Below the pieces are notes generated by a model. The model did not search any database, was not told the origin of the DNA, and was given only the letters and a program-made list of their open reading frames with translations. The position numbers and the translations under genes were made by a program. This document shows positions 6,206 to 29,478 of a stretch of DNA of 32,436 bases, in pieces. Origin of the DNA: Nitrospirota bacterium (lineage in GTDB: Bacteria; Nitrospirota; 9FT-COMBO-42-15; HDB-SIOI813); contig JACRGV010000084.1 of NCBI GenBank assembly GCA_016212215.1, positions 1-32,436 on the forward strand, in the 5' to 3' direction. Every line of letters begins with the position of its first letter. Position 1 is the first letter of the stretch.

Positions 6206-6218
6206 TTGCGTACAAAGA

Positions 6219-6395
6219 TAACCCCATCCCCACCCTAACCCTCCCCTTGAAGGGGAGGGAATTATTGAGGCACCCTATCTCTCCAGTTGACGGGGAGGGA
6301 ATTATTGAGGCACCCCCGCCCTGACCCTCCCCCCATCCAAGGGGGAGGGAATCTATGAAATTCCCCCTGACCCCTTAAAAAAAGGGGGCAGGAGG
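6219..6395. repeat. Four consecutive gamma palindromes
   Basis: The units at about 6221-6262, 6270-6302, 6313-6352 and 6360-6400 each contain a C-rich arm of the CCCTCCCC type and a facing GGGGAGGG-type arm. Two are followed by the same AATTATTGAGGCACCC joint, so local duplication is visible. The cluster lies between the sigma-54 promoter and the region where activator sites would be expected. Confidence 0.7.
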
Positions 6396-8485: not shown

Positions 8486-8645
8486 ATGAGCCAAAGCTCA
8501 TAACGGGTTATGAAAATGGAAGCATCCTTCGACAAGCTCAGGATGACACAACCCCACCCTCACCCGGACCCTCTCCCTGAGGGAGAGGGTGCTTAGTTTG
8601 TTCCCTCCCCTTCAAGGGGAGGGTTAGGGTGGGGATGGGGTTTGT
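8486..8645. repeat. Alpha-like palindrome and two gamma modules
   Basis: ATGAGCCAAAGCTCAT followed by ATGAAAAT (8488-8517) is a degenerate alpha linker. Two gamma units follow (CCCTCTCCCTGAGGGAGAGGG near 8570, then CCCTCCCCTTCAAGGGGAGGG near 8602). They would be transcribed in the leader of the kinase gene and can each form a stable hairpin. Confidence 0.75.
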
Positions 8646-8677: not shown

Positions 8678-10183
8678 ATGGGAAAATATATCCTTGTGCT
8701 GGACCAGGGTGTGTCGGGGTCAAGGGCAACCCTCACAGAAAACAAAGGAAAGGTTATAGCCTGGGCAGAAACTCCACTCAATACAGTTCCTAATAAGTCA
8801 GGATGGATTGAATACAAGCCAGATGATATCCTCAAAAGTATTCTAAGTGCAGTAAAATCGCTTTTCAAGAAGATTGGTCCTAAAAAAAAGCAAATATCTG
8901 CCATAGGTTTAGCAACTCAGCCTTCTACTATAATTGTATGGGATAAGGAGACAGGTAAATCTCTTTATAATGCAATAAGTGTAAATGACACGCGTGGTAT
9001 TGAAATTTGCAGGGAAAAGAGCAACCACCGTGAAAGCATACGTGAACGAACCGGCCTTCCATTATCAGTCACTTTTTCTGCCCCAAAGTTAAGGTGGCTT
9101 CTGAATAATATTAAACAATCCGGCAAACTTATTGATAAGGGCCGTCTTCTGTGCGGGACAGTCAATACATTTCTGATGTGGCACCTTACAAAGGGCGCAG
9201 TTTTCGCCACAGATCATTCTAATGCCTCAAGGACACTTTTGTTTAATATCCTTACAAAGTCATGGGATAAAGAAATGCTCGAGCTATTTTCCATACCTCC
9301 GGATATACTCCCTAATGTTTATCCGACGTCTCACATTTATGGAGATGCTGTTCTGGAAGGGCAGAGGATACCAATATTAGCGAGTATCGTTGACAAACAT
9401 GCCTCTCTGATTGGCAACGGCTGTATGCAGGAGGGGGAGGTAAATATTACTTATGGTAAGGAAGGGACGATTCAAATTACCACAGGTAAGAAGATTTTTA
9501 TTTTGCATGGCCTGTCGGCTGCAATAGGCTGGTCAACAGATGGGAATGGTAATGGAAATACATCATACATACTTGAAGGGAATATGAAATCTGTCGGGGC
9601 AATATTCCAATGGATGCAAACGAATCTTGGGCTTATCAGCACCAAGCCTAAGGAAAATATTGATGATATATGCCGCCGATCTCAGGAGAGAATATTTATG
9701 GTCCCTGCTATAACAGGGCTGGGTTCACCTTATGGGGAAAAGGGCGTAACTGCATGTCTGTTCGGGATGAGGTCATCTACAACACGGAATGATATTGTAC
9801 GTTCTGCAGTTGAGGCTGTTGCATTTATGGTGAAGGATAATCTGGGCCTTGTAGAAAAGGACAACAGGATTCAAATAAAAAGGATCGTCTCAGGCGGTGA
9901 ACTATCGGAAATATCTTATCTGTTACAGTTCCAATCGGACGTACTTAATATGCCGGTATATAAGACAAAAGAAGATTACCCTGTTGCAGCCGGTATTGCA
10001 TTTTTAATAAATCCGGATGCTAAAAGTATGACGAGTATGAATTTTAATCAAAAATCTCCTGGTTCAAAAAAATCTTTTACTCCAAAGGCCGCAAAGTATA
10101 GTGAGGCAGAGGTGAGAAAATTATATGAGCGTTGGAAGCTCACATGTCTTCATTCCAGAGAATGGTCAAAAAACTTTTCCTGA
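8678..10183 (+). CDS. FGGY-family carbohydrate kinase, glycerol-kinase-like, substrate unknown
   Basis: The 501-aa length and order of motifs match glycerol kinase: an N-terminal phosphate loop DQGVSGSRA (9-17; usually DQGTTSSRA), GWIEYKPDDI, TDHSNASRTLLFNI (178-191) and VSGGELSE near the C-terminus. The positions that hold glycerol in Escherichia coli GlpK (Arg83-Glu84, Tyr135, Asp245) align by eye with Pro82-Ser83, Thr132 and Asp239. Only the catalytic Asp is therefore kept. I read it as an ATP-dependent kinase of a different small polyol or sugar, or a diverged regulator. GAGG lies 12 nt before the ATG. The 3' end overlaps the next gene by 40 bp, so the two are probably co-transcribed. Confidence 0.8.
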   Translation: MGKYILVLDQGVSGSRATLTENKGKVIAWAETPLNTVPNKSGWIEYKPDDILKSILSAVKSLFKKIGPKKKQISAIGLATQPSTIIVWDKETGKSLYNAISVNDTRGIEICREKSNHRESIRERTGLPLSVTFSAPKLRWLLNNIKQSGKLIDKGRLLCGTVNTFLMWHLTKGAVFATDHSNASRTLLFNILTKSWDKEMLELFSIPPDILPNVYPTSHIYGDAVLEGQRIPILASIVDKHASLIGNGCMQEGEVNITYGKEGTIQITTGKKIFILHGLSAAIGWSTDGNGNGNTSYILEGNMKSVGAIFQWMQTNLGLISTKPKENIDDICRRSQERIFMVPAITGLGSPYGEKGVTACLFGMRSSTTRNDIVRSAVEAVAFMVKDNLGLVEKDNRIQIKRIVSGGELSEISYLLQFQSDVLNMPVYKTKEDYPVAAGIAFLINPDAKSMTSMNFNQKSPGSKKSFTPKAAKYSEAEVRKLYERWKLTCLHSREWSKNFS

Positions 10184-13041
10184 TTCTTCTTGTCATTCTT
10201 TCATTAAATTCCTCCGGTTGTACATCTGTTTTTAAATCATACGTATCGGATTCAAACCTGAAAAAGGGTAAAAAGCTTATTGAAAAACGTAAGTATGATG
10301 AGGCTGAAACTACTGTTATGAAGGCGATTGCCTATCAACCGGATAATTCTAAGGCTTGGATTACACTTGGCGACATCTTCTTATCAATTGAAGATTATAA
10401 CAGCGCTGAGAATATGTATAAAGAGGGGATAAGGCGGGATAAAAATGCCTATGATGCTTATGCAGGTTTATGGGCATTAGAGCTTGAAGAAACCGGTTAT
10501 ACAGAAGAAGTTAAGGTAAAGGTAAAAAAGGAGATTGAGGGATTTATTGATAATGGTGAGAAAAAGCCTGAGAGATTAATGGCAGCATATAAAGGTTTAA
10601 ACTTTCTTCATGAATATGACAAGTCAGCAGAACTCGCAAGAGACATAGTTGATTCAGGTGCAGATAAAAAGACTGTTGGTCTACTTGCTCTTGATATTTT
10701 TGAAGAGTTATTAAGAGAAAAGGATGCAGTTAAAAGGCTTGCCAAGATAGATGAGTTTATGAAAACATTTTCTATGAGCAGGGAACATGTATATTTAGAA
10801 AATGTTATGCGGCTCAATATCGCTGCAGGTGAACTTAATGATAAAGAACTTTTATACAAATATGGAGAAGACTGGATCAGGAACGACCCTGATAACAGAA
10901 GGGCAAACTTTATTGTCGCTAAAAATTATGTAGACTCAGATATTGCGTTGGACAGGGCAGTTGATTATCTGAAAAAGGCATTAACTTTGATTAAAGAGCC
11001 TGACCCGGCGGACAAACCTGAATTTTATCCTGATGCTGAATGGTATAAGGACCTAAAAAAATCAGAGAGTGTATATTATGACACACTTGGGTGGGCATAC
11101 TATAAGCTTGGAAGATACAGAGATGCTGAGCGGGCATATAATATGGGAGAGAAGTATAATGATTTTAACTCAAGCCTGTATTATCACGCGGGCGTGCTGG
11201 AGGAAAAAGAGGGGAAAATAGAGGATGCACTGTTTTCATACATAAACGCATTAAAGGCCGGAGAAAATGACAATGCATATCAAAACCTCGGTAATATTTT
11301 AGAGACTCATTACAGCATAAAAGAACCGTTCTACAAGGTATTTGCCGGAATGGAGGGGCTTACAACATTTACAGATGTAACTGAAGTGGCAGGGCTGAAA
11401 GGGGTTAACACTCAACGCGTGAGCTGGGGGGATTACAACAATGACGGTTATGATGATCTGCTATTTAACGGATATATGCTGTATAAAAATAACGGTGACG
11501 GGACATTTAAAAATGTTACACAAGAGGCAGGGATTGCTTATGTCACCGGTGCAAACGGCGGGGTGTGGGGCGATTTTGATAATGATGGTAATCTTGATTT
11601 TTACACGTTTGCATCGGGTAAAGATTCTACTGACAGGTTCTGGAGAAACAATGGGGATGGGACATTTACTGATATTACAAAAAACGCCGCACAAACACCT
11701 GATCCATTTCCTTCTGAGGCCGCGGCATGGGGGGATTATGACAAGGATGGGTTTATAGATATATATGTTGCCAATTATGAAAAACCTTTGTTCACGACTA
11801 TAGAAAGGGCTATGGGGACACCTGACCGGCTGTATCATAATAATGGTGACAATACGTTTGAAGAAGTAAGCACTGCCGCTGGGATTGCCCCGCCTGAAAA
11901 TATGTGTGGAAGGGGTGTCAGTTGGGGAGACTATGACAATGATGGAGACCCTGATATTTATGTTTCCAATTACAGGCTTGACTCGAATTTTTTGTGGAGG
12001 AATAACACTTCACCCATCCATCTCCCCTCACCCTTACCCTCTCCCCTTAGGGGAGAGGGAATATTTTCCAATGTTGCTGAAGAGGCAGGGGCAGAGGGAT
12101 ATGAGCAGGAGGGGATGTACGGACATTCAATAGGTGCAGACTGGGGAGATTATAATAATGACGGTAACCTCGACCTTTTTGTCTCTAATCTTGCACACCC
12201 CCGGTACATCGGATTCTCTGATAAGAGTATGTTATTGGAGAATCAGGGGCCTCCTGATTATCGTTTCAAAGATAGGTTCGGGAGTTCCGGTATAAGGTTT
12301 GAAGAAACAACGGCTGACCCTTCTTTTGCAGACTATGATAATGACGGTATGCTTGACCTGTTTTTTACTTCCACTTATGAAGGAAAGAAGAGTTTCCTTT
12401 ATAAAGGTAATGGTGATGGAACGTTTACTGATATTACCTGGCTTGCCGGTGTGAGGGTGGATAATGGCTGGGGGAATGCTTTTGCAGACTTTGATAATGA
12501 CGGTGACCTTGATCTGATAACAGCAAGCGGAACCGGCAATGGTGTACGGCTCTTTAGAAATGATGGTAATGGTAACCACTATCTACAGGTAAAAGTGGTC
12601 GGCAGTAAGTCAAACCGTTCAGGTATCGGGGCAAGGGTGACAGTTATGCGGAAATCGGATTGCGGAAAGGAAATGTCACTGAACGAGCCGCTTACAAAGG
12701 GGCATGAAGAACAGCGGGACAAGAATGTCCCGCCTATCCTCAATTTATTATTCACGGATAGGCAGTCTTCCCCATTTGTGGATGGGGGGTCATCTCTATT
12801 TATGGATAGGCGGGGTTTTCCAACCCCGCCGGAAGAAGGATCTTCGTGTGCAAACGAAACTATGAAACAGATCAGGGAAGTGCAGGGTGGGAAGGGGAGC
12901 GGGTCTCAACATTCGATGATTGCCTCGTTTGGATTCGGCAGGTATGATGGAGTGGTTGATGTAGAGGTAACATTTCCATCAGGCAAGGTTATTCGTAAGT
13001 CTGATGTAAAAACCGGACAGAGGCTCTTGGTAATAGAATAA
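10144..13041 (+). CDS. TPR / VCBS (FG-GAP) / ASPIC-UnbV lipoprotein carrying two in-frame repeat insertions
   Basis: A signal sequence ends in a lipobox (LNSSGC). TPR-like helical pairs follow (encoded at about 10255-10460 and 11050-11300). Next come seven propeller-type repeats, each with a DxDxDG-like calcium site (W-G-D-Y-N-N-D-G-Y-D-D and variants) and usually N-N-G-D-G-T-F, encoded from about 11420 to 12570. An ASPIC/UnbV domain closes the protein (GIGARVTV ... REVQGGKGSGSQ ... VTFPSGKV). Such proteins are extracytoplasmic and often of unknown substrate. Two repeat modules lie in frame: gamma at 12005-12062 splits a repeat between its N-N and G-x-F, and alpha-beta at 12674-12856 splits the UnbV domain. 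The reading frame survives both. The start is taken at ATG 10144 (GGAAG upstream); ATG 10162 is possible. Confidence 0.85.
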   Translation: MSSFQRMVKKLFLILLVILSLNSSGCTSVFKSYVSDSNLKKGKKLIEKRKYDEAETTVMKAIAYQPDNSKAWITLGDIFLSIEDYNSAENMYKEGIRRDKNAYDAYAGLWALELEETGYTEEVKVKVKKEIEGFIDNGEKKPERLMAAYKGLNFLHEYDKSAELARDIVDSGADKKTVGLLALDIFEELLREKDAVKRLAKIDEFMKTFSMSREHVYLENVMRLNIAAGELNDKELLYKYGEDWIRNDPDNRRANFIVAKNYVDSDIALDRAVDYLKKALTLIKEPDPADKPEFYPDAEWYKDLKKSESVYYDTLGWAYYKLGRYRDAERAYNMGEKYNDFNSSLYYHAGVLEEKEGKIEDALFSYINALKAGENDNAYQNLGNILETHYSIKEPFYKVFAGMEGLTTFTDVTEVAGLKGVNTQRVSWGDYNNDGYDDLLFNGYMLYKNNGDGTFKNVTQEAGIAYVTGANGGVWGDFDNDGNLDFYTFASGKDSTDRFWRNNGDGTFTDITKNAAQTPDPFPSEAAAWGDYDKDGFIDIYVANYEKPLFTTIERAMGTPDRLYHNNGDNTFEEVSTAAGIAPPENMCGRGVSWGDYDNDGDPDIYVSNYRLDSNFLWRNNTSPIHLPSPLPSPLRGEGIFSNVAEEAGAEGYEQEGMYGHSIGADWGDYNNDGNLDLFVSNLAHPRYIGFSDKSMLLENQGPPDYRFKDRFGSSGIRFEETTADPSFADYDNDGMLDLFFTSTYEGKKSFLYKGNGDGTFTDITWLAGVRVDNGWGNAFADFDNDGDLDLITASGTGNGVRLFRNDGNGNHYLQVKVVGSKSNRSGIGARVTVMRKSDCGKEMSLNEPLTKGHEEQRDKNVPPILNLLFTDRQSSPFVDGGSSLFMDRRGFPTPPEEGSSCANETMKQIREVQGGKGSGSQHSMIASFGFGRYDGVVDVEVTFPSGKVIRKSDVKTGQRLLVIE
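12005..12062 (+). repeat. Gamma module inserted in frame in a VCBS repeat
   Basis: The nucleotides contain the gamma palindrome CCCTCTCCCC/GGGGAGAGGG and its CACCCTTACC flank. The translation, SPLPSPLRGEG, interrupts the normal N-N-G-D-G-T-F turn of a calcium-binding repeat. The insert is close to 51-54 bp and keeps the frame. Confidence 0.8.
12674..12856 (+). repeat. Alpha-beta module inserted in frame in the UnbV domain
   Basis: The insertion has the full composite order: GAACGAGCCGCTTACAAAGG and ATGAAGA (alpha), GGGACAAGAATGTCCC, GGATAGGCGGGGTTTTCC with ACCCCGCC (beta), then a degenerate alpha end, CTTCGTGTGCAAAC. It is about 180 bp long, adds about 60 residues between the TVMR strand and the REVQGG motif of the UnbV domain, and contains no stop in this frame. 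Confidence 0.82.
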
Positions 13042-15966: not shown

Positions 15967-16923
15967 ATGCGAAATAATAAGAAAATATGGACAATTAAAT
16001 TGATACTTAAATGGGCATCAGAGTATCTTTCTTCACAAAAGATTACAGATGCATATATGGAGGCAGAGTATTTATTGACCCATGCGTTGGATTGCAGCAG
16101 GAAGGAGATATTACTTGACCCTGATAAGGTTCTTTCCAATGAAGAGGTTGTGCGGTTCAATGATTTTATATACAGAAGGGGCAGAAGGGAACCGGCCCAT
16201 TACATTATCGGTGAGGTCGAATTTCGCGGCCTCATCTTTAAGGTAAATAAAGATGTCCTTATCCCGAGACCTGAGACAGAGTTACTGGTAGAAGAGGCGG
16301 TTAATATTGTGAATAAATATGAATGTGATGCCCCTTCGCCCCATTTAGAAAATTCCCTCCCTTTCAAGGGGAGGGTCAGGGTGGGGATGGGTTTAACTTT
16401 GAATAATCTCACCATCCTAGACCTCTGCACCGGCAGCGGATGTATAGCAATATCTATTGCAAAAGAAATTCCTGTAAGCAGGGTATACGCTGTTGACATA
16501 TCAGATGGTGCAGTGAAAATTGCACAGGAGAATGCAAAGAGGAATGGTGTTGATGATAAAATAACATTTCTTACCGGTGACCTTTATAAGGCCATTGAAC
16601 CATTAGGCTTGGAAGGAAAGGTTGACTTACTTGTCTCCAATCCCCCTTATGTCTCAAAGTTAGAAATGGCAGAGTTACAGCCTGAGATAAAGAACTACGA
16701 ACCTCTGCTTGCCCTCTATGGAGGCGAAGACGGCCTTGACTTCTACAGAAGGATCATCCGTGAAGCCCCCCGCTACCTATCTTCCGGTGGATTCTTAATT
16801 ATGGAACTCGGATATGGAGAGGCAGAGGGTGTACGGAGTCTGATTGAGAATGAAAAGTTTTTTAGAGGGATTGAAACTATTAAAGACCTTGCAGGGATAG
16901 ACAGGGTGATTAAGGCAGGATAA
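15967..16923 (+). CDS. prmC: Peptide chain release factor N5-glutamine methyltransferase, with an in-frame repeat insertion
   Basis: The N-terminal helical domain carries LIPRPETELLVEEAV. The Rossmann methyltransferase core has motif I LDLCTGSGCIAI, the acidic strand VYAVDIS and the catalytic SNPPYVS, followed by YEPLLALYGGEDGLDFYRRI, all diagnostic of PrmC/HemK. It methylates the GGQ glutamine of release factors. At about residues 122-142, between the N-terminal domain and motif I, a gamma repeat (CCCTCCCTTTCAAGGGGAGGG plus tail, 16351-16391) is translated as NSLPFKGRVRVGMG. The insert keeps the frame and sits in a linker of variable length, so the enzyme is probably active. No strong ribosome site precedes the ATG. 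The stop faces the TonB-like gene three bases away. Confidence 0.94.
   Translation: MRNNKKIWTIKLILKWASEYLSSQKITDAYMEAEYLLTHALDCSRKEILLDPDKVLSNEEVVRFNDFIYRRGRREPAHYIIGEVEFRGLIFKVNKDVLIPRPETELLVEEAVNIVNKYECDAPSPHLENSLPFKGRVRVGMGLTLNNLTILDLCTGSGCIAISIAKEIPVSRVYAVDISDGAVKIAQENAKRNGVDDKITFLTGDLYKAIEPLGLEGKVDLLVSNPPYVSKLEMAELQPEIKNYEPLLALYGGEDGLDFYRRIIREAPRYLSSGGFLIMELGYGEAEGVRSLIENEKFFRGIETIKDLAGIDRVIKAG
16345..16394 (+). repeat. Gamma module inside prmC
   Basis: This has the same palindrome and GGTCAGGGTGGGGATGGG tail as the intergenic copies at 6240, 8602 and 20135. It is in frame and free of stops in the prmC frame. Confidence 0.85.
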
Positions 16924-19764: not shown

Positions 19765-19903
19765 TTAATTCCCCCTATCCTATTACCTATTCTGTTTCCA
19801 TACGCTATAAATAATTTTAAGTTATATCATATTGCTGGTACAAAATTCTATTTAATTTCTTAGTACGCCCATTTTTCTAAAGGGTGGGATAGGAAGATTT
19901 GAT

Positions 19904-20340
19904 CAGAGATTTTCGGGGGAACTCACATGAACAAGGGTTCACAAAGGGCCATGAAAATCAGCGGGACAGGAAAGTCCCGCCTGTCCGCATAGAAATGGAT
20001 AGGCGGGGTTTTCTTACCCCGCCGGAAGGGATTTTCGGATGAACTTTCATGAGTGGGGGCGCTCACAAAGGGGAATGAAAACCCCACCCTCACCCTAACC
20101 CTCTCCCTGAGGGAGAGGGGGCTATGTTGATTCCCTCCCCTTCAAGGGGAGGGTTAGGGTGGGGATGGGGTTGATTTTCGGATGAACTCACATGAACCAG
20201 GGTTCACAAAGGGACATGAAAATCAGCGGGACAGGAAAGTCCCGCCTATCCGCATAGAAATGGATAGGCGGGGTTTTCTTACCCCGCCGTAGAGGATTTT
20301 CGGATGAACGCTAATGAGCCTTCAGCTCACAGGAGAATGA
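19904..20340. repeat. Alpha-beta-alpha-gamma-gamma-alpha-beta-alpha array
   Basis: The order is easily read. Alpha (GATTTTCGGGGGAACTCACA .. GGTTCACAAAGG .. ATGAAAA) is followed by beta (GGGACAGGAAAGTCCC .. GGATAGGCGGGG .. ACCCCGCC), alpha, and two gamma palindromes (near 20100 and 20137). Then come alpha, a beta nearly identical to the first, and alpha. The alpha linker flanks every other module. This is the clearest view of the system in the window. Confidence 0.88.
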
Positions 20341-22302: not shown

Positions 22303-22379
22303 CTCCATTTTTATGTTTTCTTAGTTTGCATTACAAATTATAAGTGTGTTATATTTTCAGCAACCGTAACATATATTCA
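22303..22379 (+). repeat. 77-bp direct repeat, left copy
   Basis: It matches 24475-24551 at roughly nine of ten positions. It contains TTGCAT, a 17-bp spacer and TTATAT (22326-22354), a plausible promoter reading toward the restriction-modification genes. It flanks the pair on the left. Confidence 0.8.
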
Positions 22380-22475: not shown

Positions 22476-23447
22476 ATGAAAATGGGAAAAACATTATTGA
22501 GAAATAAAGAATTGCCAACTTTTTTTGGAGAGTTGCAACTCAAAGGGGAAAAAAAAGGAATTGATTTTGCAAAAAGAGATGGCGACTCCCCCATTTTATT
22601 TTACAAACATCCGAACGGTGAATTATGGCAAGGGAATAGTATTGAATGGCTAAAAAGTATGAGCGATGAAAGTATAGATTTGATTTTTGCTGACCCGCCT
22701 TACAATATTAAAAAAGCCAATTGGGACAGCTTTGAAAGCCATGAAGAATATATAAAATGGTCATTGCAATGGATTGAGCAAGCTGCAAGAATTTTAAAAC
22801 CAACAGGAACACTATATATATGTGGTTTTTCTGAAATACTTGCGGACTTAAAACATCCGGCATCAAAGTATTTTACATCGTGCCGCTGGATTATCTGGCA
22901 TTACAAAAACAAAGCAAATCTTGGTAATGATTGGGGACGAAGCCACGAGAGCATTTTGCATTTTCGAAAAACAAAGAGTTTTGTTTTCAATATTGATGAA
23001 ATTCGTATTCCTTATGGCGAACACACTTTAAAATATCCAAGCCATCCGCAAGCCGAAACAAGCCAATATGGAAAGGGCAGAAATGGCAATCATATTTGGG
23101 AGCCAAATCCGCATGGAGCAAAACCAAAAGATGTGTTAGAAATTCCTACTACTTGCAATGGAATGCACGAAAAAACGCCACACCCTACACAGAAGCCCGA
23201 AGAACTTTTAAGGAAATTTATTCTTACATCTTCAAATGTTGGTGAGGTTGTATTAGACCCTTTTTGTGGTTCAGGAACAACTCCTGTTTGTGCAGAACAA
23301 CTTCAGAGAAAATGGCTTGCCTGCGACCTTTCACCAGAATATCTTGATTGGGCTGCAAACAGGATTGAATTGGTTGAAGATTGGCCGATTGAGCAATGGA
23401 TTAAATACGATTTTGAAAACCTTAAAAGAAGAAACTCTATACGATGA
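22476..23447 (+). CDS. Type II DNA methyltransferase, beta-class (N6-adenine or N4-cytosine)
   Basis: The catalytic DPPY (73-76) comes before the AdoMet loop DPFCGSGTT (261-269), which is the beta-class order. The stretch after DPPY (NIKKANWDSFESHEEYIKW) and TPHPTQKPEEL fit the N6/N4 methylase family that includes MboII- and RsrI-type adenine enzymes. The 323-aa length is normal. It overlaps the next gene by ATGA, typical of a restriction-modification pair. The ribosome site is weak. The AT-rich codon choice differs by eye from the housekeeping genes and suggests transfer. The recognition site cannot be read from the sequence. Confidence 0.92.
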   Translation: MKMGKTLLRNKELPTFFGELQLKGEKKGIDFAKRDGDSPILFYKHPNGELWQGNSIEWLKSMSDESIDLIFADPPYNIKKANWDSFESHEEYIKWSLQWIEQAARILKPTGTLYICGFSEILADLKHPASKYFTSCRWIIWHYKNKANLGNDWGRSHESILHFRKTKSFVFNIDEIRIPYGEHTLKYPSHPQAETSQYGKGRNGNHIWEPNPHGAKPKDVLEIPTTCNGMHEKTPHPTQKPEELLRKFILTSSNVGEVVLDPFCGSGTTPVCAEQLQRKWLACDLSPEYLDWAANRIELVEDWPIEQWIKYDFENLKRRNSIR

Positions 23448-24343
23448 CTCTAAAACAGCTTGTAAAACAAGCCACAAATAAGGATAACTTCAAAGACCTT
23501 AAAGGTTTTATCTCATTTTGTAACGAGTACCTGGCATTTATCAGCAGCAATCTTCAGGCAGTAATTATTTCTCAAAATGAAAACCATTATCGCTTCTACC
23601 AGTATGATAAAACCGGAAATTATCAAATTACCAGACCTATCAACTCAAACCTGATGTATGATGCAAAAGGATTTGCAAAAGCGTCAAAAGAATACATGAA
23701 AATATTGAAAGTAGTAAAAAATGCAGACAAGAAAGATGATTCAATCAGAAAAATCATAAATAACTCTACATACACTATTCAACAATCAATTGGAGCAGCA
23801 TTGGATGGATTACCTGCCGGAAAATCAAATACTGCAAGAAAATTGACTGGAGATTTGTTCGAGCGTTTTATCCGGTTACTCATTCATGAAATCGGAATTG
23901 ATTGTAGAACAGGAGTAATACAGGTTCCTGTAATTGTTGATGGGCAAGCCCAATTCAATATGAGCTATCAGCACGACCTTATCATTGAAAAAGATGATGA
24001 TATAAAAGTAATTGGATCAATCAAAACATCAAGCAAAGACCGAATAGACAAGATTTTCATTGATAAATTCCTATACAATAAATTGACAGAGAAGGATACG
24101 CCGCATATAGCCGTATTCCTTAATGATGTGCAAAGGAAGAATACAAAAAAAGAAAACGAATACGGTATAAATGCAACATTCCTTCCGGGCCACTTCAAGG
24201 GTTATACAGTTAAGTTAAATCCCCTGGACGGTGTTTATTATTGCGACATCAGACCCAATATGAAAACTGAAAATATTTTGAAGGACCAAGTCAAAACCTT
24301 TGACCATTTGCTGATTGAAGATATTTGGAAGTTCATAGAATAA
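23444..24343 (+). CDS. Probable type II restriction endonuclease
   Basis: The 299-aa protein is translationally coupled to the methyltransferase. A conserved-looking core runs GDLFERFIRLLIHEIG (with E140), then QHDLIIEKDDDIKVIGSIKT, which could form a PD-(D/E)XK-type site: Asp178 on one strand and S-I-K (192-194) on the next. The acidic residue of the E-x-K pair would be replaced by Ser, as happens in some restriction enzymes, and E140 may contribute. I know of no close relative by eye, so the assignment rests on the overlap and this motif. Confidence 0.75.
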   Translation: MTLKQLVKQATNKDNFKDLKGFISFCNEYLAFISSNLQAVIISQNENHYRFYQYDKTGNYQITRPINSNLMYDAKGFAKASKEYMKILKVVKNADKKDDSIRKIINNSTYTIQQSIGAALDGLPAGKSNTARKLTGDLFERFIRLLIHEIGIDCRTGVIQVPVIVDGQAQFNMSYQHDLIIEKDDDIKVIGSIKTSSKDRIDKIFIDKFLYNKLTEKDTPHIAVFLNDVQRKNTKKENEYGINATFLPGHFKGYTVKLNPLDGVYYCDIRPNMKTENILKDQVKTFDHLLIEDIWKFIE

Positions 24344-24474: not shown

Positions 24475-24551
24475 TCTCCATTTTAAGTTTTCTTAGTTTG
24501 CATTGCAAATTATAAGTGTGTTATATTTTCAGCAGCCATAACATATATTCA
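24475..24551 (+). repeat. 77-bp direct repeat, right copy
   Basis: It carries the same promoter-like elements as the left copy (TTGCAT, 17 bp, TTATAT at 24498-24526). It runs into the truncated HEPN gene. Confidence 0.8.
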
Positions 24552-27639: not shown

Positions 27640-29478
27640 ATTTTAGAAACACTCCTAATCATATTGTGTTTTCTGGTAGTAGCTGCTATCGGCATGATAT
27701 TTATTTTCAGGCCAAAGGGTGGAGATAAATATCATGGTTTAGTGAGCAGGATGGATGGTTTGCAAACCAGTTTCAGCAAGATTGAGACAAACCTGAGAGA
27801 AGATTTCCGCATAAGTCGTGAAGAAAATTCCGCTATAGCCACAGGCAACCGTGCAGAGTTAAACCAGTCACTCAAAGACGTTAAAACTGAATTAACAGAT
27901 ACCCTTAAAATAATTACAGAACAGAATCAAAAAGCATTGGAGAAACTTAATGCTACTTTAGAAGAAAAAGTAAATGCACTTATTGAAAAAACTGAGCATA
28001 ACAATAAAATGAATCGGGAAGAACAAACTGTCAATCTGAGGGCGTTTTCAGAAAATAACGTCACCCAATTGGAAAAAATTAATACCCAGATCGAACAAAG
28101 GCTTAAAGGCATTACAGACCAAGCTAAGTTAGATAATGACCGTATGCGTATAGCATTCAAAGACTTTCAGGATGCGTTTGAAAAAAATCTAAAATCATTC
28201 AATGAATTACAGAGGGAGAAATTTGCACAATTGGATGAAAAACAAAATGCCCTCATTGAGAAGACAGAACGGAACAATAAGGCTAATCGGGAAGAACAAA
28301 CTAAAAATTTGAAAGAGTTTTCAGAGAGCAATGTTCTTCAACTGGAAAAGATTAATACACAAGTAGAGCAAAAGCTTAAAGACCTTACAGGGCAGACGAA
28401 GATTGATAATGACCGTATGCGTGAAACCCTTATAAAAGCTGTCAAAGATTTTCAGGATGCTTTTGATAAGAACATGAAATCGTTTAATGAATTGCAGAGG
28501 GAGAAGTTTGGTCAGTTAGAGACGAAGCAGGGGGAGCTGATACAGAATACGGAGAAGAGGCTGGAGCAGATGAGAGAAACGGTTGATGAAAAACTGCAGA
28601 AGACATTGAATGAAAGATTGGGGCAGTCATTTGAATTGGTCAGGAAGCAACTGGAGAGTGTGCAGAAGGGCCTGGGAGATATGCAGACGCTGGCACAGGA
28701 TGTCGGCGGTTTGAAGAAGGTGCTGAGTAATGTAAAGATGAGGGGAGGCATTGGTGAGGTGCAGTTGGCCATGCTGTTGGAGCAGGTATTGGCACCGGAG
28801 CAGTATGAGGCCAATGTAAAAACCAAACATGGCTCATCAGACATGGTAGAGTTTGCAATCAAACTGCCCGGGCGTGATGATGCCAATAGTGTTGTTTATC
28901 TGCCTGTTGATGCCAAGTTTCCCAAAGAGGCTTATGAGCAATTGACCGATGCTTATGAAGCAGCCGACCCTGCATTAATAGATACTGCCTCCAAAAAAAT
29001 GGAGTCAGTCATAAAGAGTATGGCAAAGGACATCCGGGACAAATATATCTCACCGCCTGACACTACTGACTTTGGCATAATGTTTCTGCCGTTTGAGGGC
29101 ATCTATGCTGAGGTGGTCCGCAGGGCGAGTTTGCTGGAACAACTGCAAAGGGAATATAAGGTGATTGTAACTGGGCCTACTACATTGGCGGCTATTTTAA
29201 ACAGCCTGCAGATTGGTTTCCGTACACTCGCATTACAGAAACGGAGCAGTGAGGTCTGGAAGATACTTGGGGCTGTAAAAAAAGAGTTTGAAAACTTCGG
29301 GGGTATGCTTGAAAAGGCACGGAAGAATATTTCCTCCGCCGGAGATACGATTGAAGAGCTGATGGGAAAGAGGACACGCGCCATTAACCGCACACTAAAA
29401 GGGGTTGAGGCATTGCCTGCTGCAGAGAGTCAAAAGATACTGCCTGATATATCTTCTAATGAAGTTGTTGATGATTAA
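27640..29478 (+). CDS. rmuC: DNA recombination protein RmuC, probable ATT start, internal duplication
   Basis: It has an N-terminal membrane anchor, a long coiled coil (about residues 40-330) and the C-terminal RmuC nuclease-like domain with YLPVDAKFPKEAYEQL, DTTDFGIMFLPFEGIYAEV and TGPTTLAAILNSL. RmuC limits genome rearrangements. The coiled coil holds two copies of a segment of about 90 residues (EKTEHNNKMNREEQT ... SFNELQREKF and EKTERNNKANREEQT ... SFNELQREKF), which makes the protein longer than the usual 450-500 aa. The frame is open from 27616 with no ATG, GTG or TTG before TTG 27664. ATT at 27640 sits 5 nt after AAAGGGTG and gives a complete membrane anchor (LETLLIILCFLVVAAIGMIF), so it is the better start; TTG 27664 has no ribosome site. 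Confidence 0.88.
   Translation: MLETLLIILCFLVVAAIGMIFIFRPKGGDKYHGLVSRMDGLQTSFSKIETNLREDFRISREENSAIATGNRAELNQSLKDVKTELTDTLKIITEQNQKALEKLNATLEEKVNALIEKTEHNNKMNREEQTVNLRAFSENNVTQLEKINTQIEQRLKGITDQAKLDNDRMRIAFKDFQDAFEKNLKSFNELQREKFAQLDEKQNALIEKTERNNKANREEQTKNLKEFSESNVLQLEKINTQVEQKLKDLTGQTKIDNDRMRETLIKAVKDFQDAFDKNMKSFNELQREKFGQLETKQGELIQNTEKRLEQMRETVDEKLQKTLNERLGQSFELVRKQLESVQKGLGDMQTLAQDVGGLKKVLSNVKMRGGIGEVQLAMLLEQVLAPEQYEANVKTKHGSSDMVEFAIKLPGRDDANSVVYLPVDAKFPKEAYEQLTDAYEAADPALIDTASKKMESVIKSMAKDIRDKYISPPDTTDFGIMFLPFEGIYAEVVRRASLLEQLQREYKVIVTGPTTLAAILNSLQIGFRTLALQKRSSEVWKILGAVKKEFENFGGMLEKARKNISSAGDTIEELMGKRTRAINRTLKGVEALPAAESQKILPDISSNEVVDD

Follow-up and report, generated by a model that had tools for sequence, protein, structure and literature searches.

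A short palindromic repeat carried in frame by prmC in a Nitrospirota bacterium, within a predicted loop of the methyltransferase domain

How does a short repeat come to lie inside the coding sequence of a core translation enzyme, and can the enzyme bear it? The question is raised by the prmC gene of a Nitrospirota bacterium. The window analysed here is the whole stretch of 32,436 nucleotides of contig JACRGV010000084.1 (assembly GCA_016212215.1), and the features discussed are located in Table 1.

In a profile search of the genome, the prmC ORF scores 286.8 bits against TIGR03534, for a cut-off of 199.1. The PrmC_N domain (PF17827) covers residues 13–82, the invariant IPRPET motif is kept, and so are N225, P227 and Y228 of NPPY. 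The best fold matches of the structural model (Foldseek) are the solved PrmC/HemK structures 1nv8, 2b3t and 1t43. Judged by its sequence, which shows all the features that define membership (TIGR03534, PrmC_N, NPPY and IPRPET), the ORF is a true PrmC. It is single-copy: the genome-wide search with TIGR03534 gave no second match above the cut-off, the runner-up reaching 56.7 bits. The first-pass annotation had considered that this gene could be a decaying duplicate of an intact prmC located elsewhere, which the search does not bear out.

The repeat, called P2, has a core of 39 bp which matches the pattern TTCCCTCCCYTTCAAGGGGAGGGTYAGGGTGGGGATGGG. In prmC the letters of the core are TTCCCTCCCTTTCAAGGGGAGGGTCAGGGTGGGGATGGG and their translation is (N)SLPFKGRVRVGMG; the repeat lies within the ORF, in frame, as had been noticed from the sequence alone. 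With its tail the P2 unit measures about 45–57 bp, and RNA fold prediction gives, for a single unit, a hairpin followed by a G-rich tail.

A minimal loop, without P2, occupies this site in the PrmCs of a genome of the same genus (G001) and of two genomes of the same family (G004 and G007). The loop reads PRPETELLVEESVNCVKEREATAFDLCTGSGC in G001 and PRPETELLVEEAVNIVNKYECDAPSPHLENSLPFKGRVRVGMGLTLNNLTILDLCTGSGC in the genome studied here, a net difference of 28 residues, the exact ends of which (about codons 119–146) vary with the alignment. A gain relative to relatives had thus been correctly anticipated, but it is larger than the 14–20 residues proposed. About 18 of the 28 residues correspond to the repeat (NSLPFKGRVRVGMG and about four more residues). 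The remaining codons, about 10 (YECDAPSPHLE), stand just before the repeat and are not accounted for by P2. They do not look like a copy of another repeat: no match of at least 22/33 was found elsewhere in the 711-kb sample described below, in a scan that needed one of two short anchors. It is conceivable that they are the remnant of another palindrome, P1, whose hairpin was deleted (PHPHL-EN), the DNA being only about half identical.

Table 1. Location of prmC, of its insert and of related repeats in the window
Feature	Positions	Strand	Basis or remark
prmC (peptide chain release factor N5-glutamine methyltransferase), 318 aa	15967..16923	+	TIGR03534, PF17827, motifs, Foldseek
P2 repeat core in prmC; hairpin CCCTCCC..GGGAGGG and G-rich tail; translated NSLPFKGRVRVGMG	16353..16391	+	genome pattern search, predicted fold
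Extended similarity of the prmC repeat to the copy at 6213-6263, 92% complementary	16351..16401	+	inverted repeat I4
Net gain of about 84 nt (28 codons) relative to same-genus and same-family prmC	16321..16404 (approx.)	+	alignments with G001, G004, G007
In-frame P4-P3-P5 composite (PLTKGHEEQRDKNVPPIL...MDRRGFPTPP) in ORF 10132-13041	12680..12850	+	other families, same behaviour
Intergenic P2 copy, directly preceded by a P1 palindrome (8561-8591)	8601..8639	+	
Intergenic P2 copy, paired with P1 (20093-20119)	20131..20169	+	
Intergenic P2 copy	6223..6261	-	

P2 occurs 340 times in the genome when up to 3 mismatches are allowed, and the reversed pattern, used as a control in the same genome, has no match, which excludes chance as the source of the copies. 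In 117 related genomes, a slightly shorter pattern finds from 0 to 10 copies in each. P2 is therefore a real family, amplified in this lineage. These counts bear on the reading that the insert is ordinary variation in loop length and its match to the repeat incidental. The length of the loop does differ across the phylum, but the core in prmC is at most 2 mismatches away from a consensus common to hundreds of genomic copies, for none in the control, so that this reading, most improbable altogether, is refuted for prmC. Several of the variable linkers of other genera are, moreover, themselves repeats of those genomes.

Indeed, several other genera also have a long PrmC loop, with linker DNA that is again repetitive. 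The loop of G005 and G008 contains the palindrome TTCCGGGGACACCATACTTAATT...AATTAAGTATGGTGTCCCCGGAA, whose half-unit has 24 and 7 matches, respectively, in those genomes. In G005 (L041) the palindrome has arms of 23 bp and is in frame, and the half-unit is present in all six genomes searched. G089 carries CATCCCCCCCTTAGTAAGGGGGGGCAAAGGGGGG (10 matches), and G115 and G103 carry repeats of the AACTCCAARCTCCAAACTC type (20 and 13 matches). These repeats are unrelated to P2 and to each other, apart from the type shared by G115 and G103. Three unrelated types in addition to P2 make at least four independent captures at one loop of PrmC.

An AlphaFold2 model of this PrmC was made with five relatives (mean pLDDT 85.9, pTM 0.82). 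Residues 120–143 are the only stretch with a pLDDT below 50 besides the first four residues, the remainder of the core being modelled with confidence, in keeping with the expectation that structure prediction would place the insert in an exposed loop. They lie between a helix (102–119) and strand beta1 (148–154). The insert had been assigned to the linker between the N-terminal domain and the methyltransferase core. A loop it is, but the N-terminal domain ends near residue 82, ahead of the site, and helix 102–119 is part of the catalytic portion, so that the site belongs to the methyltransferase domain and not to an inter-domain linker. According to the model, the insert is a disordered loop within the catalytic domain.

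The position of P2 relative to genes was examined in a sample of 710,732 bases of the genome, taken in stretches and including the window. The sample is about 1.5-fold enriched in copies because contigs were partly picked from the hit list, and the frame and depletion figures derive from gene calls made in it with a purpose-written, simple hexamer model. It holds 124 P2 copies (up to 5 mismatches), and P2 is depleted from genes: about 88% of the sequence is called coding, yet only 26 copies (21%) fall wholly within ORFs of 100 aa or more. In 37 of the 124 copies a P1 palindrome stands directly upstream. In the intergenic mosaic at 19900-20340 of the window, P2/P1 and a GGGACAGGAAAGTCCC palindrome take turns with a unit that extends from GATTTTCGGATGAAC to ATGAAAATC; this arrangement suggests a nested or ordered insertion of repeat families.

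Among the internal genic copies of the sample, 18 of 21 share one orientation and one frame, which reads NSLPFKGRVRVGMG. The full consensus unit has three open frames by our reading, IPSPSRGGLGWGWG being one of the alternatives, and the chance of finding 18 of 21 copies in one of three frames is about 3e-6 after correction for the choice of frame. It could be proposed that the insert is removed after transcription (as a mini-intron or by translational bypass) or after translation, leaving the enzyme unaffected. Palindrome-bounded inserts in core genes would then be explained with no call on the tolerance of loops. Yet removal at the RNA level needs neither an open frame nor a single frame, and it would not yield the depletion from genes (21% versus about 88%), which makes this proposal very unlikely.

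Recognisable hosts of such inserts include MetG, GltX, MutS, LigA, Ddl, ArgC, an IspE-type GHMP kinase, an RdgB-type pyrophosphatase, CheB and a CheR-TPR protein; names that lack Pfam support were recognised from the sequence. The insert of LigA is the related P1 palindrome and not P2, and CheB and the CheR-TPR protein carry theirs in a stretch that separates Pfam domains. Alignment with G001, G003, G004 or G007 shows that MetG, GltX, ArgC, Ddl and RdgB each contain an in-frame block unique to this genome, with both flanks conserved. The size of these blocks ranges from 31 residues (ArgC) to more than 50, and the blocks found in hosts are often mosaics of several repeat families. The claim that the element spreads into housekeeping genes is thus supported, by comparison with relatives for metG, gltX, argC, ddl and rdgB, and by the position of the insert in recognisable proteins for mutS, the ispE-like gene and cheB.

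At least six repeat families, P1 to P6, are present in the genome. Of the 485 ORFs in the enriched sample that are 150 aa or longer, 41 have an in-frame internal copy of one of the six. The FG-GAP/TPR-like ORF that holds the P4-P3-P5 composite (Table 1) has a second in-frame insert at 12015-12060, which is P1-like (PSPLPSPLRGEGI). Direct repeats of other kinds are also seen in the window. A 71-nt repeat occurs at 22309-22379 and 24481-24551 (94% identical). Its first copy precedes a DNA methyltransferase-like ORF (22476-23447), after which comes ORF 23444-24343 (restriction-modification-like), and its second copy is near the start of the ORF at 24516; a role as a common promoter or control element is possible. 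The coiled-coil part of an RmuC-like ORF (27664-29478) has internal direct repeats at 27958-28553, of 192 and 117 nt, which are 72–75% identical.

Several core enzymes contain large inserts, of 31 aa up to over 50 aa, and one might take this as a sign that the host genes, prmC among them, are decaying in a genome overrun by repeats. Several observations make such decay quite unlikely. Every host tested is single-copy: when the genome was searched for the conserved regions of metG, gltX, argC, ddl and rdgB, one copy of each was found, and the leftover matches concern only a part of MetG, at 25–39% identity, as with other tRNA synthetases. The coding signal flanks the insert on both sides, motifs are conserved, and the hosts are about 60–85% identical to their relatives. 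Furthermore, the completeness of the genome (2.99 Mb in 164 contigs) is estimated at 100%. From the open frames, the single-copy status and the intact motifs we infer that PrmC tolerates its insert.

The orientation of P2 follows transcription. In the intergenic gaps of the sample that separate co-directional genes, 77 copies are sense and 6 antisense (72 versus 6 in a stricter count). When genic copies are included, the ratio is 50 to 5 and 52 to 3 on the two gene strands, and 22 to 2 where the gene is on the minority strand of its contig. The direction of replication was considered as the cause and rejected, as the copies track the local gene strand on both strands, including that of minority-strand genes. 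The strand able to form a G-quadruplex is unlikely to be the sole cause: the partner P1 is also sense-biased, with its C-rich strand in the transcript. P1, P3, P4, P5 and P6 behave like P2, each with its own sense strand and a favoured frame in genes; the picture for P6 in genes is somewhat blurred by a loose pattern that mixes subfamilies. The next gene often begins a short way downstream of P2 (median distance 38 nt). Many of the 72 intergenic sense copies end 8–12 nt before a predicted start, and their tail offers an ATG (CGGATGAA). The tail may supply start codons to the next gene, or may mislead the gene caller.

The prevalence of one frame and one orientation over many genes could also mean that the insert has acquired a function, with the peptide or the RNA hairpin and its G-rich tail regulating the translation of prmC, the stability of its mRNA or the interaction with release factors. 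The predicted folding of the RNA hairpin and the presence of the four-G-run motif on the oriented strand of all 123 P2 copies tested would agree with such a role. On the other hand, the hosts are functionally unrelated, relatives manage without the insert, and unrelated repeats occupy the same loop in other genera, so that adoption for a function is unlikely, if less so than the decay of the hosts.

Very probably, P2 is a non-autonomous palindromic element akin to REPs or RPEs, whose in-frame insertions survive at permissive loops, where the peptide is tolerated. The element would have multiplied in this lineage, moving non-autonomously, and one copy would have entered the PrmC loop between helix 102–119 and strand beta1, to be translated as a disordered surface loop. 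Most genic insertions would be lost, the survivors being those in sense orientation, in frame and in a tolerant loop. The sense bias could result from insertion into single-stranded DNA exposed by transcription (e.g., the non-template strand) or from the removal of antisense copies. No match to the Y1/RAYT transposase family (PF01797) was found in the 164-contig draft genome, whereas control genomes were positive, and no reverse transcriptase (PF00078) was found in the draft. Among the Rfam families searched in the window, only a tRNA reached the threshold, and none did for the repeat. When the ends of the copies were examined for target-site duplications, matching 5-mers were seen in 11 of 103 P2 copies, for 1.8 expected, a figure confounded by copy lineages. 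A broader reading is possible but rather doubtful: at least six palindromic families would insert or persist only in sense to transcription, with one favoured ORF, and would spread via operons into core enzymes as coding DNA with no known REP transposase or reverse transcriptase, the PrmC loop being a recurrent landing site across the phylum.

In-frame palindromic elements in genes have been known from Rickettsia as RPEs (Ogata et al. 2000, as related in PMC10969869 and PMC3733652). As in these accounts, several palindromic families are found here in frame in unrelated housekeeping genes, with a conserved peptide and apparently compatible with the function of the host; the likeness is that of in-frame palindromes which encode a conserved peptide in unrelated ORFs. 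RPEs measure about 150 bp in the account of PMC10969869, whereas the core here is 39 bp (45–57 bp with the tail), in an unrelated genome. P2 further differs from RPEs, as they are summarised in these sources, by being mostly intergenic, by its company of at least six families and by its strict orientation with transcription.

Di Nocera et al. 2013 (PMC3733652) described intragenic REPs of the GTAG and CGTC types in a number of bacteria; the hosts include repair and tRNA synthetase genes, in which the REPs encode 20–82 aa. The authors argued that intragenic REPs are possibly neutral in loops or linkers, and reported different REPs at about the same site of recB in two Xanthomonas species. P2 resembles the REPs/BIMEs of that study: it is a short, high-copy stem-loop, often in inverted pairs (340 copies, with a hairpin and P1 before 37 of 124), and such dimers and a frequent position between unidirectional genes are features of REPs as well. 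Unlike GTAG/CGTC REPs, it has no constant tag: CGTC is absent, and GTAG occurs at a near-chance rate (31 of 123 windows, each about 73 nt long) and is not part of the consensus. The RAYT (Y1 tyrosine transposase) expected with GTAG REPs was not found in the draft genome, although CGTC REPs lack RAYT too. Moreover, the REPs of PMC3733652 adjoin the 3' end of the upstream gene, whereas P2 is often near the start side of the next gene. Judged by tag and transposase, P2 does not belong to the tagged REP superfamilies.

PARCEL repeats (PMC2996958) are also palindromic DNA that encodes a conserved peptide in many ORFs, but they form tandem amphipathic domains, mainly in membrane proteins, whereas the inserts made by P2 and the other families here are single or composite and lie mostly in soluble enzymes. 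Bacterial MITEs (PMC10969869) share with P2 a short length, non-autonomous nature, high copy number and the possibility of in-frame gene fusion; the single P2 unit differs by having no clear terminal inverted repeats. REPs and RPEs within genes are prior art, and by analogy the present case would work alike. A search of the open-access literature found no report of a coding repeat in this lineage or of one with strict orientation. As far as that literature shows, what is new is the lineage, the single frame and strict sense orientation shared by six or more families, and the recurrent capture of repeats by the PrmC loop.

Non-autonomous repeats would thus be a source of new segments of core enzymes outside Rickettsia, in a genome where they are dense enough for statistics. 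The link between orientation and transcription would make the spread of untagged palindromic repeats directly testable, and the repeated capture at one loop marks a place in PrmC, a conserved enzyme, where inserts are tolerated.
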